DNA of 57,981 nucleotides, from assembly GCA_017545185.1 (NCBI GenBank), contig JAFWQJ010000048.1, positions 1 through 57,981 of the forward strand, read 5' to 3'. The position numbers and the translations under genes are program-made. The notes under the pieces were generated by a model, which made no database searches, was not told the origin of the DNA, and was given only the letters and a program-made list of their open reading frames with translations. Below, piece by piece: positions 5,698 through 51,592 of this stretch. Each line of letters starts with the position of its first letter. Within the stretch, counting starts at the first letter, position 1. The DNA comes from Oscillospiraceae bacterium (GTDB taxonomy: Bacteria; Bacillota; Clostridia; Oscillospirales; Ruminococcaceae).

Positions 5698-5781
5698 TGC
5701 TGCTGACCGGACTTGAACCGGTACGGTGTATCCACCGAGAGATTTTAAGTCTCTTGCGTCTGCCGATTTCGCCACAGCAGC
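5698..5781 (-). tRNA. tRNA-Leu (anticodon UAA)
   Basis: The minus strand gives a 7-base-pair acceptor stem GCTGCTG/CAGCAGC with discriminator A, a D arm containing GGCGAAATCGGCAGACGC, an anticodon loop with TAA (AGACTTAAAATCTCT), a long variable arm typical of leucine tRNA and a T arm GGTTCAAGTCC. The 3' CCA is not encoded, so it must be added by a CCA-adding enzyme such as the one at 30450-31793. Confidence 0.95.
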
Positions 5782-22954: not shown

Positions 22955-22983
22955 TTGACTTTTTTACACAGCTGTGCTATAAT
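22955..22983 (+). promoter_or_regulatory. Sigma-A promoter upstream of sigI
   Basis: TTGACT, 17-base spacer, TATAAT. The leader to the sigI start is about 150 bases and holds two hairpins: CTGCTG/CAGCAG (22992-23013) and ACCGCCC/GGGCGGT (23028-23054). Confidence 0.75.
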
Positions 22984-23086
22984 GAAATGAAAGACTGCTG
23001 CGGTTTTATCAGCAGACCCGAAAGCCAGACCGCCCGGCAGACTGTCAGGGCGGTTTGCTGCTTTGATCCGGTTTTTTTCTGCAAAT

Positions 23087-23114
23087 ACCCCGGTTTTCCG
23101 CGGGCTGCTGCGTA
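23087..23114 (+). promoter_or_regulatory. Candidate SigI-type promoter of sigI (autoregulation)
   Basis: ACCCCG, then exactly 18 bases, then CGTA, with a T-rich tract (23071-23078) just upstream. SigI promoters in Bacillus and Clostridium have an ACCCC-type -35 and a CGWA-type -10. The same layout precedes the secreted repeat protein at 25148-25175. The predicted transcript would begin about 20 bases before the sigI start. Confidence 0.55.
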
Positions 23115-23141
23115 TTCTTACAATGATATGGGGGTGAGGGA

Positions 23142-23858
23142 TTGAAAAGCGATTCGCATCAGATCATAGCCCAGGTATACAAAGCGAAAACAGACGGCCG
23201 TGCTGCTGATGAACTGATCTCATCCTACATGCCGTTTATCAAGTCCGAAACTGCGAAATTTCTGAAGCGACCGCCCGATCCCAGCGATGACGAACTGAGC
23301 ATCGCAATGTTTGCATTTTACGAAGCCGTCCGCAGCTATACGAAATCCAGAGGCGCATTTCTGAATTTTGCCGCACTGCAGATCCGCAGCCGCCTGATCG
23401 ACAACTACCGCAAAGAGAAGAGGAACAAGGGTCAGATCTCGCTGGACAGCTCCGACGAGGAGCAGGCCGATCTGCTGGAGACGATCCCGGACGGTCACGA
23501 TGAATATGAAGCAACGGAAATGCGCGAGGCGACCCGGCAGGAGATCGAGGAGCTGACCGCGCAGATGACCGATTTCGGTGTTTCCATGACGGATGTCGCG
23601 GACAATTCCCCGCGGCAGAGCAGAACTATGGAAAGCTGCCGGAGGGCGATCGCCTATGCGAGAAGCCATCCGGACATTCTGGAGGACTTTCTCCGAACCA
23701 AGCGTGTTCCGATCGCAAGGCTTGCAGAGGGCGCAGCCGTAGACCGGAAATCGCTGGAGCGGCACAGACGGTATCTCGTCGCCGTGCTGCTGATCTGTAC
23801 AAACGGGTATGAGATCCTGCGCGGGCATATTATGCAGGTTCTGAAAGGAGGGTGCTGA
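23142..23858 (+). CDS. sigI: RNA polymerase sigma factor SigI
   Basis: The 238-residue protein matches the SigI family: a sigma region 2 (about 1-100: SSYMPFIKSETAKFLKRP, DELSIAMFAFYEAVRSY, FLNFAALQIRSRLIDNYRKEKR) and the SigI-specific C-terminal domain (about 160-235) with LRTKRVPIARLAEGAAVDRKSLERHRRYLVA as its recognition helix region. The start is TTG after GGGGGTGAGGGA. The RsgI-like anti-sigma gene begins one base after the stop. In cellulolytic clostridia SigI factors switch on polysaccharide-degradation genes; in Bacillus, heat and wall-related genes. Confidence 0.92.
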   Translation: MKSDSHQIIAQVYKAKTDGRAADELISSYMPFIKSETAKFLKRPPDPSDDELSIAMFAFYEAVRSYTKSRGAFLNFAALQIRSRLIDNYRKEKRNKGQISLDSSDEEQADLLETIPDGHDEYEATEMREATRQEIEELTAQMTDFGVSMTDVADNSPRQSRTMESCRRAIAYARSHPDILEDFLRTKRVPIARLAEGAAVDRKSLERHRRYLVAVLLICTNGYEILRGHIMQVLKGGC

Positions 23859-23859
23859 G

Positions 23860-25035
23860 ATGAAATATGTTGTCACGGAATGCCATGACGGCTATGCCGT
23901 GCTCATGGATGAAGGCGCAGGTTTTGTTCACGCGGCAAACCTGCATTATACAGTCGGGCAGACTGTCACAAATCCGATCCTGATGCAGGAAGCGGAACCG
24001 GCAGGAAAGAGCATCACGGTCAGGCGCATCCTTCCTGTTCTTGCAGCTGCGGCATGTCTTGCAGTCGTATCAGCCGCCGGATTCTCCTATTATTCCGGCA
24101 AATACAAGACGCATTCGGTCGTTGTCATGTCGTCGGATGCCAATATCAAGATGTATCTCAACAAGCAGGGCGAGGTATTGAGCGTACAGGCTGAGGACGA
24201 TTACGCCGAGGAGATCCTCAGGGATTACGATACCAAAAACAAGAGCAAGACCGATGTCGCAAACGATCTTCTTGCAAAGCAGATCGAAAGCGGGCATCTG
24301 ACCAGCGGGGATACGGTTGACTTCTATATCTCCGCGGATACGAATGCCGCATACGATACCTATAAAACGGAGTTTGAAACGGAGATCCAGCAGGTCAGGG
24401 TGAGCGTTCAGGAGCTCGGCGCGCCGGAGCCGCCGAAGCCGGATAAGGCAGAAGCGCCGGTCAAGCCCGAAGCACCGGTCAAACCGGATCCGAAGGCTGA
24501 TCCTAAGAATGATCCGAAGGCCGAGCCGGCAAAGCCCGATCCCGCAAAGGATCAGCCGCTGCAGCCGGAGGCACCGAAGGAGAAGCCTGCACAGGCCGTC
24601 AAGCCTGCGGAGAAGCCGTGGAAGAATGTAACGCCCGTGCAGCCGGCGAATCCGCCTGCACCGCCTGTGAATCCGAAGGATCCGCCGACGATCGGCAAGG
24701 AGCAGACACCGCCTGTGCCGCCGACGGAACCGGAGGAAAAGCCCGAGCTTCTGCCGGACGAGCCGAAGAAGCCGGAAGAAATCGAAAAAACTGATACGGA
24801 GGAAAAACCGGAAGATGGTATTCCTGCGCCGGAAAAACCGGAGGAGCAGGAAGGGGGGAAGCCGGTGCTGCCTGATCCTGATACGGAGCAGCCCGGAGAA
24901 AAAGACAAAGAAGAAAAGAAACCGGCAGAGGTTCATCCTCCTCTGCCCCGGCCGGAACCTGCAAACGGATTGCTCCCGAAGCAGGATCCGCTGCAAATCT
25001 CGGAACCTCCGGAACTATTTGCTGTACTCGTTTGA
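23860..25035 (+). CDS. rsgI: Anti-sigma-I factor RsgI-like, Pro-rich ectodomain
   Basis: The 391-residue protein has the RsgI plan: a cytoplasmic SigI-binding domain (1-~45, MKYVVTECHDGYAVLMDEG), a membrane helix (~57-77), the conserved periplasmic domain (~84-185) and a tail. The segment usually reading D-[IV]-N-P is here SSDANIKMYLN, so the Asn-Pro pair associated with autocleavage is missing. Residues ~187-380 are a Pro/Lys/Glu/Ala linker (VKPEAPVKPDPKADPK and similar) without a recognisable carbohydrate-binding module, unlike many clostridial RsgI proteins. It follows sigI by one base, so they are co-translated. The tail suggests wall spanning or interaction with the neighbouring secreted protein. 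Confidence 0.87.
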   Translation: MKYVVTECHDGYAVLMDEGAGFVHAANLHYTVGQTVTNPILMQEAEPAGKSITVRRILPVLAAAACLAVVSAAGFSYYSGKYKTHSVVVMSSDANIKMYLNKQGEVLSVQAEDDYAEEILRDYDTKNKSKTDVANDLLAKQIESGHLTSGDTVDFYISADTNAAYDTYKTEFETEIQQVRVSVQELGAPEPPKPDKAEAPVKPEAPVKPDPKADPKNDPKAEPAKPDPAKDQPLQPEAPKEKPAQAVKPAEKPWKNVTPVQPANPPAPPVNPKDPPTIGKEQTPPVPPTEPEEKPELLPDEPKKPEEIEKTDTEEKPEDGIPAPEKPEEQEGGKPVLPDPDTEQPGEKDKEEKKPAEVHPPLPRPEPANGLLPKQDPLQISEPPELFAVLV

Positions 25036-25052
25036 TCTGAAAATGATGTTTC

Positions 25053-25088
25053 GGGACTGCTGCACATCCTGCAGCGGTCCTTTTTTTC
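25053..25088 (+). terminator. Intrinsic terminator after rsgI
   Basis: GGGACTGCTGCA-catcc-TGCAGCGGTCC followed by TTTTTTT. Confidence 0.88.
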
Positions 25089-25147
25089 TTCGTAAATACG
25101 TGCCGAATACTGCAGACTGTAATTTTTTTCAAAAAATTTTTCGGGAA

Positions 25148-25175
25148 ACCCCGTTTTTTGCGATCCGATTTCGTA
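25148..25175 (+). promoter_or_regulatory. Candidate SigI-type promoter of the secreted repeat protein
   Basis: ACCCCG, 18 bases, CGTA, with T7 and A6/T5 tracts immediately upstream (25122-25141). It matches the architecture upstream of sigI. No sigma-A promoter is apparent in this interval, which supports SigI control. Confidence 0.55.
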
Positions 25176-25255
25176 AGCTGATAACAGAAAGCAAAACGCA
25201 GCTTTCGCTCCCGATCAAACGGAGCAACATGAAAAAAGGAAAAGGAGTCCTGATT

Positions 25256-26083
25256 ATGAAACTGAAGTCCAGAAAGCAGATCCTGTCCGCTCTCGCAGCA
25301 CTTGCAGTCCTGTCCGCAGCGACCGGCGCTACCGCATTTGCAGCAAGCATCGCTGACAAGGAAGACACCGCTCCGGCCGTCACTGAGGAAGTGGCAGCAG
25401 AGGCTGAGGCTGAGGCTGAAGCACCGGCAGCAGAGGCAGAAGCTCCTGCAGCTGAGGCAGAGGCACCTGCAGCTGAGGCAGAGGCACCGGCAGCAGAGGC
25501 AGAAGCTCCTGCAGCTGAGGCTGAGGCACCGGCAGTTGAAGAAGAAGCACCGGCTCCCGTTGAGGAAGCTGAGAAGCCGGCAAAGCCGATCGGCAAGAAG
25601 GAGATCATCTCCATGATCAACAAGACCTTCGATCTCGAGACCTTCGAGTTCAAGGATGCCGATGCAAAGGCTGAGTGGATCGATTTCTGCCAGAACACCC
25701 TGAAGCCGGAGATCGAGAAGGAGATCGCAAAGGCTGCTGAAGAGGCTGAGAAGCCGGAGCCGCCGAAGCCGGTCGAGGAAGACGGCGAGAAGCCGGAGCC
25801 TCCGAAGCCGATCGAGGAAGACGGCGAGAAGCCGGAGCCCCCGAAGCCGGTCGAGGAAGACGGCGAGAAGCCGGAGCCCCCGAAGCCGATCGAGGAAGAC
25901 GGCGAGAAGCCGGAGCCCCCGAAGCCGCACGAGAACGGCGAGAAGCCGGTTCCGCCGCAGCCGCCTGTTCCGGGCGAGGGTCCTGCGGGTCCGCATCATG
26001 AGCCCCCGAAGCCGGTCGTCGAGGAGACTGCCGCTGAGGAAACCGCTGCTGAGACCGTTGCCGAGGAAGAAGCAGCTGAGTAA
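25256..26083 (+). CDS. Secreted Ala/Glu- and Pro-repeat protein
   Basis: The 275-residue protein has a signal peptide (1-~28, basic start then LSALAALAVLSAATGATAFAAS). Two repeat blocks flank a short helical segment: about six copies of a hexapeptide near EAEAPA (about 50-95), a unique region (about 105-160, IISMINKTFDLETFEFKDAD), and a 13-residue unit near EKPEPPKPVEEDG in about five copies (about 165-225). The end is again Glu/Ala-rich, with no LPXTG or membrane anchor. AAAGGAG lies seven bases before the ATG at 25256; an ATG 27 bases earlier is less well placed. A SigI-like promoter precedes it. It could be a wall-associated or spacer protein; I do not recognise the family. Confidence 0.85.
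   Translation: MKLKSRKQILSALAALAVLSAATGATAFAASIADKEDTAPAVTEEVAAEAEAEAEAPAAEAEAPAAEAEAPAAEAEAPAAEAEAPAAEAEAPAVEEEAPAPVEEAEKPAKPIGKKEIISMINKTFDLETFEFKDADAKAEWIDFCQNTLKPEIEKEIAKAAEEAEKPEPPKPVEEDGEKPEPPKPIEEDGEKPEPPKPVEEDGEKPEPPKPIEEDGEKPEPPKPHENGEKPVPPQPPVPGEGPAGPHHEPPKPVVEETAAEETAAETVAEEEAAE
25419..25540 (+). repeat. In-gene tandem repeat, 18-base unit
   Basis: About six copies of a unit close to gcaccggcagcagaggca, encoding the Ala/Glu/Pro hexapeptides. The copies differ only at synonymous positions, suggesting expansion by slippage or recombination. Confidence 0.85.
25750..25930 (+). repeat. In-gene tandem repeat, 39-base unit
   Basis: About four and a half nearly identical 39-base units encoding EKPEPPKP[VI]EEDG, with alternating Val and Ile (gtc/atc) in successive units. 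This alternation points to duplication of a two-unit block. Confidence 0.88.
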
Positions 26084-51316: not shown

Positions 51317-51337
51317 CTGTGAACCGTATGCGGGGAT

Positions 51338-51421
51338 ACTTCCTACGCAGGCATTATCCTGACAGGTGAAAAGGGTCGGAGCGCACAGCTCCCTCTCAGC
51401 CTTTCTGAAAGCTCCCCTGTA
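51338..51421 (-). ncRNA. TPP riboswitch controlling thiC
   Basis: The minus strand carries the conserved TPP aptamer: CAGGGGAGC...AGGCTGAGAGGGA...GACCCTTTTCACCTGTCAGGATAATGCCTGCGTAGGAA (in pieces). A terminator follows. Binding of thiamine pyrophosphate would favour termination and shut off thiC. Confidence 0.95.
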
Positions 51422-51592
51422 TTCCAAACGGTATTGTAACATATTTCGCGGCATTTGTCAAGCATTTCTTTTATCTCGCGCGTAATATTGCGGGGCGCCG
51501 CTGCGGGAGCCGTGCGGATTCGTGTAAAGAACGCCTCCGGAATGATGCGCGGAGAAAGGAATACGAAACCGCGTAAAACAAACAGATAAAAA

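Follow-up and report, generated by a model that had tools for sequence, protein, structure and literature searches.

Two promoter-like sites of the same layout, here termed P1 and P2, are present in a 57,981 nucleotide stretch of DNA from an Oscillospiraceae bacterium (referred to throughout as the window) and are very probably promoters recognized by the sigma factor SigI. P1 would autoregulate the sigI-rsgI operon, probably acting atop a basal sigma-A promoter, and P2 would drive the gene for an exported low-complexity protein as a separate transcript. The features of the locus are listed below.

Table 1. Features of the sigI-rsgI locus and of the adjoining gene for a secreted protein, with positions in the window.
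Feature	Position	Strand	Remarks
Sigma-A-like promoter, TTGACT-17-TATAAT, TG before the -10	22955-22983	+	11 of 12 matches; 2 sites in the scanned region, 1.3 expected
P1, putative sigma-I promoter: ACCCCG 23087-23092, TTTT 23094-23097, CGTA 23111-23114	23087-23114	+	Conserved before sigI orthologues
sigI, TTG start, sigma factor SigI	23142-23858	+	NF006178, TIGR02895, phmmer to 8i24_F
rsgI, anti-sigma factor: N-terminal domain, hydrophobic segment, RsgI_M-like domain without Asn-Pro, Pro/Glu/Lys-rich tail	23860-25035	+	
Intrinsic terminator, 12 pairs, loop of 5, T-run	25053-25081	+	3' of rsgI
AAAAAATTTTT tract 5' of P2	25131-25141	+	A like tract recurs there in the P2 alignment
P2, putative sigma-I promoter of the secreted gene: ACCCCG 25148-25153, TTTTTT 25154-25159, CGTA 25172-25175	25148-25175	+	
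Possible leader hairpin, GAAAGC...GCTTTC	25187-25206	+	Just past the predicted P2 transcript start
Secreted protein, 275 aa: signal peptide (by eye), Ala/Glu repeats, short conserved domain, Glu/Pro/Lys repeats	25256-26083	+	
Conserved 50-residue domain of the secreted protein	25571-25720	+	Helix, beta bridge, helix in the AF2 model

By its sequence matches, the product of sigI is SigI, a group V sigma-70 factor. It is recognized by the family models NF006178 (E 7e-52) and TIGR02895 (E 7e-45), with both scores below the curated cut-offs, and phmmer aligns it with the solved SigI6 structure (8i24_F) at E 7e-22 over residues 17-229. The nearest named record is that of Ruminococcus sp. Phil11, at 97%, with ten R. 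flavefaciens strains at 71-80%, and the window is taken to belong to a Ruminococcus of rumen type. The following gene, which starts one base past the sigI stop codon, encodes RsgI, as judged from its position after sigI, its membrane segment, and a Pfam match to RsgI_M (PF23750, E 9e-9). The N-terminal domain and the membrane segment were read by eye; Pfam gives no match to the RsgI N-terminal domain at E values up to 1 and no recognized carbohydrate-binding sensor in this protein.

The sigma-A-like site 5' of P1 may be a basal promoter of sigI-rsgI, which would mean that P1 need not be the sole promoter of sigI. Between the two there is a hairpin with a T-rich tail (23044-23067), which could attenuate basal sigI transcription. 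On the other side of the operon, the 12-pair hairpin and T-run confirm the strong terminator that the original prediction placed between rsgI and the secreted gene. Its claim that the secreted gene has no visible sigma-A promoter also stands, there being no sigma-70-type site in a scan from rsgI to this gene. Elsewhere in the window are a TPP riboswitch (51323-51428) and a tRNA (5698-5781), on the - strand.

The pattern from which the two sites were first recognized, ACCCCG-N18-CGTA, has two matches in the window, both on the + strand and both at the positions originally given. This is beyond chance for the window, as shuffled versions have a mean of 0.07 matches and at least two matches are seen in none of 100 shuffles. 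The T-rich tracts said to lie 5' of both sites are there as well (GGTTTTTTTC at 23070-23079, TTTTTTTCAAAAAATTTTT at 25123-25141). The proposal that a genome-wide scan for this pattern would define the regulon fails: the window's own genome has seven sites against six in reversed controls, so the bare pattern is not enriched and is unable to serve as a definition. Three of the seven matches (L001, L003, L006) are copies of one repeat-like sequence, in which ACCCCGTTATGTGGATA...CGTAACCGGTCG recurs with the look of a dispersed repeat. A further bare match without the T-tract, L002 on contig C28, is shortly 5' of a gene whose exported product has a stretch that by eye resembles a dockerin, and no counterpart is found by exact pattern in G002 and G006, whose SigI proteins are closest to that of the window. 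The match L007 has a likely counterpart in G006.

Alignment of the relatives gives a longer arrangement of ACCCCG, one base, TTT, 14 nt, CGTA, two bases, and CT. None of the other five matches in the window's own genome has TTT at the position at which P1 and P2 carry it (ACCCCGNTTT). When the T-tract is added to the pattern (CCCCGNTTTN14CGTA), there are exactly two sites in this genome, P1 and P2, and no control sites. Allowing up to two mismatches to ACCCCNNTTTN14CGTANNCT gives 14 sites against 23 controls, made up of two that are exact, none with one mismatch, and 12 with two, so there is nothing between P1 and P2 and the background.

Clear orthologues of sigI (E 1e-98 or better) are present in 20 of 30 genomes of the window's genus, the raw tally of 27 including other sigma factors that match weakly, with about 25-33% identity. 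P1 is found by the first pattern before sigI in 18 of the 19 that have upstream DNA, the exception being G014, with CACC for CCCC. In a wider contig set of 80 sigI loci, P1 is present in 62 of the 77 that have 140 nt or more of upstream sequence and in none of 522 control windows; because the two sets share assemblies, these counts are not independent. Most of the 15 that miss the pattern have variants of it, such as CGCA or an A-tract, although this is a reading by eye and not a count. The comparison supports both the SigI-type layout that was claimed and the autoregulation of sigI.

Published sigma-I promoters read CCCYYAAA, 13-14 nt, and CGWA, with ACCCCC--AA, 15 nt, and CGAA in the Bacillales (PMC4711584). 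The C-run, the spacing, and the CGTA of the window sites agree with this layout, and a T-tract is present in place of the A-tract. Across 197 genomes of the family, sigI is found at 1e-30 in 24, and the extended motif is found at 29 places in 18 genomes, against 2 control places; at 27 of the 29 places the gene that follows is sigI, one for a lipoprotein, or, in the window, that of the secreted protein. It might be supposed that the motif is instead the operator of another regulator that coevolves with the locus, with transcription starting from sigma-A promoters that have escaped recognition, and by eye part of the P1 spacer does resemble an inverted repeat, CCGnTTTnCGG, in several relatives. 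This is improbable, since that repeat is absent from the P2 consensus, the layout and spacing are those described for sigma-I promoters, 17 of the 18 motif-bearing genomes of the family have sigI, and the scan before the secreted gene has no sigma-A-like site.

A profile of the secreted domain finds it in 18 of the 30 genus genomes, these being 18 of the 20 with sigI and none of the 10 without it (Fisher p 2e-6, uncorrected for relatedness). The two genomes with sigI and without the target are G025, which is fragmented, and G029, in which the contig ends after rsgI. There is a promoter before all 18 copies of the target, 15 by the stricter pattern and those of G016, G019, and G027 by the looser one. 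In five of the 18 (G016, G017, G019, G023, G027) the target is on a different contig from sigI and yet has kept its promoter, and in each of these genomes the sigI contig continues past rsgI without the target. The copy in G028 is at a contig end, where its placement relative to sigI is indeterminable.

Within the 80-locus set, 36 loci have the secreted domain, and P2 is matched by script in 34 of them; of the remaining two, L097 has P2 and L172 has a near match. The domain is not found by profile at the other 44 loci, some of which are from R. flavefaciens. At 17 of these P2 precedes the gene for an exported repeat-type protein, at two P2 is at a contig end, at L099 the target is inverted, and for L138 the target is elsewhere in the genome. 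The adjacency of the secreted gene to rsgI, seen in the window and also in the majority of relatives where the two are linked, might suggest that the P2 match is due to chance, or to hitch-hiking from the neighbouring sigI promoter, as through a duplicated upstream region. This can be given hardly any credence, as the T-tract pattern has its two sites against no controls in the window's own genome, the promoter has been kept before the unlinked copies, and the P1 and P2 consensus sequences differ outside the promoter elements. The unlinked retention and the co-occurrence with sigI support the dedicated secreted SigI target of the original prediction, and it appears that the relatives keep this pairing even where the genes have been separated.

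In the 30 genomes of the genus, CCCCGNTTTN14CGTA has 33 sites against 8 control sites, with sigI or the secreted gene following 29 of the 33. When viewed by eye, one of the other four falls within coding DNA (G004:C58), one is unexplained (G017:C20), one is part of a terminator-like hairpin (G019:C134), and one is 5' of a gene for an exported enzyme-like protein, where a sigma-A-like sequence of its own is nearer the start (G028:C456). In ten strains of R. flavefaciens there are 18 exact sites, 17 of which are before sigI or the secreted gene, and 28 sites against 4 controls when one mismatch is allowed. Both exact sites are present in 8 of the 10 strains, with strain 007c having P2 and a longer-spaced P1 and strain XPD3002 having neither exactly. 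The sigI of XPD3002 (L118, G517) has a 15-nt-spaced P1, and no target was found in this strain.

Six of the ten one-mismatch sites in R. flavefaciens were viewed. Three of these represent a single sequence that recurs, in antisense orientation within a gene whose product looks dockerin-like, two are in or against reading frames, and one is beyond the end of a presumed uvrC, which is also the location of the extra exact site, G513:C5; the viewed sites and G513:C5 are taken as chance. No exact site was found before a cellulosome gene in the ten strains; among the 6 of 10 one-mismatch sites viewed are the three antisense to the gene with the dockerin-like product. The sigma-I regulon appears to be near-private, with two promoters by pattern scan, from which weaker or differently built targets could escape. 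A 2024 survey links dedicated RsgI suites with cellulosomes of the Acetivibrio type alone (PMC11557425), in keeping with some other role in Ruminococcus.

In other genera of the family, sigI stretches were examined from 20 of the 23 other genomes that have sigI, with G070, G142, and G155 left out. A linked lipoprotein gene with a promoter is present in 16 of the 20, 15 found by script together with G187. As for the exceptions, the lipoprotein gene of G177 is without a recognized promoter, that of G140 is unlinked and has a promoter (L209), G110 yielded no lipoprotein, and the contig ends in G162. RsgI_M is present in all three of the lipoproteins that were run against Pfam, and the remaining ones are alike by eye, which would make the sigma-I target in these genera a free copy of the domain from the anti-sigma ectodomain, on a lipid anchor. 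In the window's genus, the secreted target has no RsgI_M match in Pfam (window and G009). Two of the lipoprotein genes, at L248 (G120) and L245 (G179), are preceded by tandem putative sigma-I promoters about 91-94 bp apart.

The RsgI proteins also differ between the genera in the Asn-Pro of the RsgI_M domain, which we take to be the site of self-cleavage. All 20 RsgI from other genera of the family have it, and none of the 20 from the window's genus does. In the 80-locus set it is flagged in one of 79, at another place (L173), with RsgI not found at L157 and cut short at L175. RsgI8 of C. thermocellum is also without a self-cleavage motif (PMC12203970), and loss of Asn-Pro does not therefore exclude a protein from the RsgI family.

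The low-complexity tails of RsgI and the target are similar in composition, with a cosine over 31 pairs of 0.85 within genomes against 0.65 when re-paired, although neither relatedness nor base composition is corrected for in this test. Within the window's genus the values are 0.92 against 0.89, reached in 0 of 10,000 re-pairings, and within the other genera they are 0.78 against 0.73 (p 0.0025), the 16 tails from the latter including false ones (G089 and G113, cut at the end of a stretch or contig, and G102, with a longer reading frame). This matching, and the lipoproteins that themselves carry RsgI_M, would suit a target that serves chiefly as decoy or partner to the RsgI ectodomain, shutting off the switch or setting its threshold, rather than as an effector. 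Such a role is compatible with P1 and P2 being sigma-I promoters and is a possibility to be held tentatively, given that the target in the window's genus has no RsgI_M match, that the tail test is uncorrected, and that some tails are not true ones.

Where P1 and P2 have the T-tract, the published promoters of C. thermocellum carry an A-tract. A sigma-I3 promoter was abolished when one of its best-conserved -35 or -10 bases was altered by transversion (PMC6056542), and in SigI6 a histidine, H171, reads the -35 minor groove and is called conserved (PMC10575876). Replacement of this residue by Tyr, Phe, Asn, Ser, or Ala gave a dead protein and by Lys or Arg a weak one, with Gln unmentioned in that account (PMC10575876). 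It is Gln that is found at this position in the window, in 18 of 19 sequences from the genus, in 20 of 20 from other genera, and in 78 of 79 from the 80-locus set, the others being Arg; these counts leave out the partial G025 and L171, and the numbering was inferred from K170-H171-R172 and S174.

Among 50 sequences from other Clostridia the position is H, K, Q, S, A, or T, so that His is no strict criterion for SigI. From these 50 sigI stretches 15 gave a promoter, with 7 A-tracts and 1 T-tract for His or Lys, 3 T-tracts and 1 A-tract for Gln, and 2 T-tracts and 1 A-tract for Ser or Thr. A strict code between residue 171 and the orientation of the tract is not supported, as the link is loose in these 15, which were counted with no chance control. 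An A-tract is also present in three Ruminococcus P1 sites (L151, L158, L172), from a set in which every residue at this position but one, an Arg, is Gln. We read the T-tract as a variation on the established mode of recognition, such that an A:T minor groove would be required and could be formed with the A-tract on either strand.

The leader hairpin following P2 may possibly stabilize the mRNA. Its arms vary and pairing is kept in several relatives (GAAAGC/GCTTTC, GAAACC/GGTTTC, GAAGCC/GGCTTC). Full 6-pair arms are present in 16 of 49 anchored leaders against 2.7% of shuffles, with near-identical relatives counted separately; the mean number of pairs is 4.6 in leaders against 4.2 in shuffles, and 12 of 61 leaders are without the anchor. 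RNAalifold on a gappy alignment of 15 P2 leaders gave no pairs. The secreted protein itself has no LPXTG and no Pfam match. Its 50-residue domain has invariant K, F, D, F, K, and W across 15 sequences and is present in two copies in some relatives. The model of this domain has a mean pLDDT of 77 and a single Foldseek match (E 8.9), and the best PDB sequence match is at E 0.49.

In the mechanism that is proposed for this locus, RsgI would hold SigI at the membrane, and a signal at the envelope or surface would lead to RsgI cleavage. The freed SigI would raise its own operon, giving both gain and new anti-sigma factor for switching off, and would raise the secreted protein, which would be a component of the envelope, acting in the space that the RsgI ectodomain occupies, and might feed back on the sensor. 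A wider reading, put forward as speculation and somewhat doubtful, is of a closed sigma-I circuit across the family, consisting of its own operon and essentially one exported product built like the RsgI ectodomain, which would act on the sensor externally, setting or resetting it. In other genera this product would be the lipoprotein with RsgI_M and a matching tail; in Ruminococcus RsgI would have lost Asn-Pro, the product has no RsgI_M match, and both have Pro/Glu-rich tails. The inverted A-tract would be read by a changed minor-groove reader.

Sigma-I is otherwise met in the control of the many genes of the cellulosome and in stress in Bacillus. In B. subtilis, RsgI has a disordered region in its ectodomain and is linked to cell-wall homeostasis, and the targets of SigI include lytE and mreBH, whereas the only target detected here is a low-complexity exported protein. 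Like B. subtilis, the window has a single SigI/RsgI pair, the promoter there being of the ACCCCC/CGAA type (PMC4711584). The SigI1-SigI8/RsgI systems of C. thermocellum share the sigI-rsgI operon, the autoregulation proposed here, the C-run in the -35 (of sigma-I3), an A:T tract 13-14 nt before CGWA, and an RsgI with a transmembrane helix and a periplasmic domain (PMC4711584, PMC6056542, PMC12203970). Unlike C. thermocellum, with its eight sigI and A-tract, there is one sigI here and mostly a T-tract; Gln replaces the His171 described for SigI6 (PMC10575876), RsgI is without a recognized carbohydrate-binding sensor, and the detected regulon is one secreted protein with no Pfam match. The self-cleaving RsgI_M/SEAL domain (PF23750; PDB 8t9n) is matched by the RsgI of the window and by the three lipoproteins run, but Asn-Pro is lacking from the RsgI of the genus and the lipoprotein domain is separate from any anti-sigma part.

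This pairing of sigma-I with the secreted target was not seen described in the literature on SigI/RsgI promoters, on sigma-I in Ruminococcus, and on RsgI in R. flavefaciens, with no paper at all on RsgI in Faecalibacterium, and no description of external feedback by a target on the sensor of a sigma/anti-sigma pair was found in the literature searched, subscription papers being mostly outside both searches. With its detectable regulon limited to two promoters, and retained in many Ruminococcus as well as, with another product, in other genera, this sigma-I pair would provide a small and tractable system for studying what RsgI senses. The likeness of the target to the RsgI ectodomain would make external feedback on the anti-sigma factor directly testable, and the T-tract and Gln variant would provide a test of the published model for how sigma-I reads the -35.
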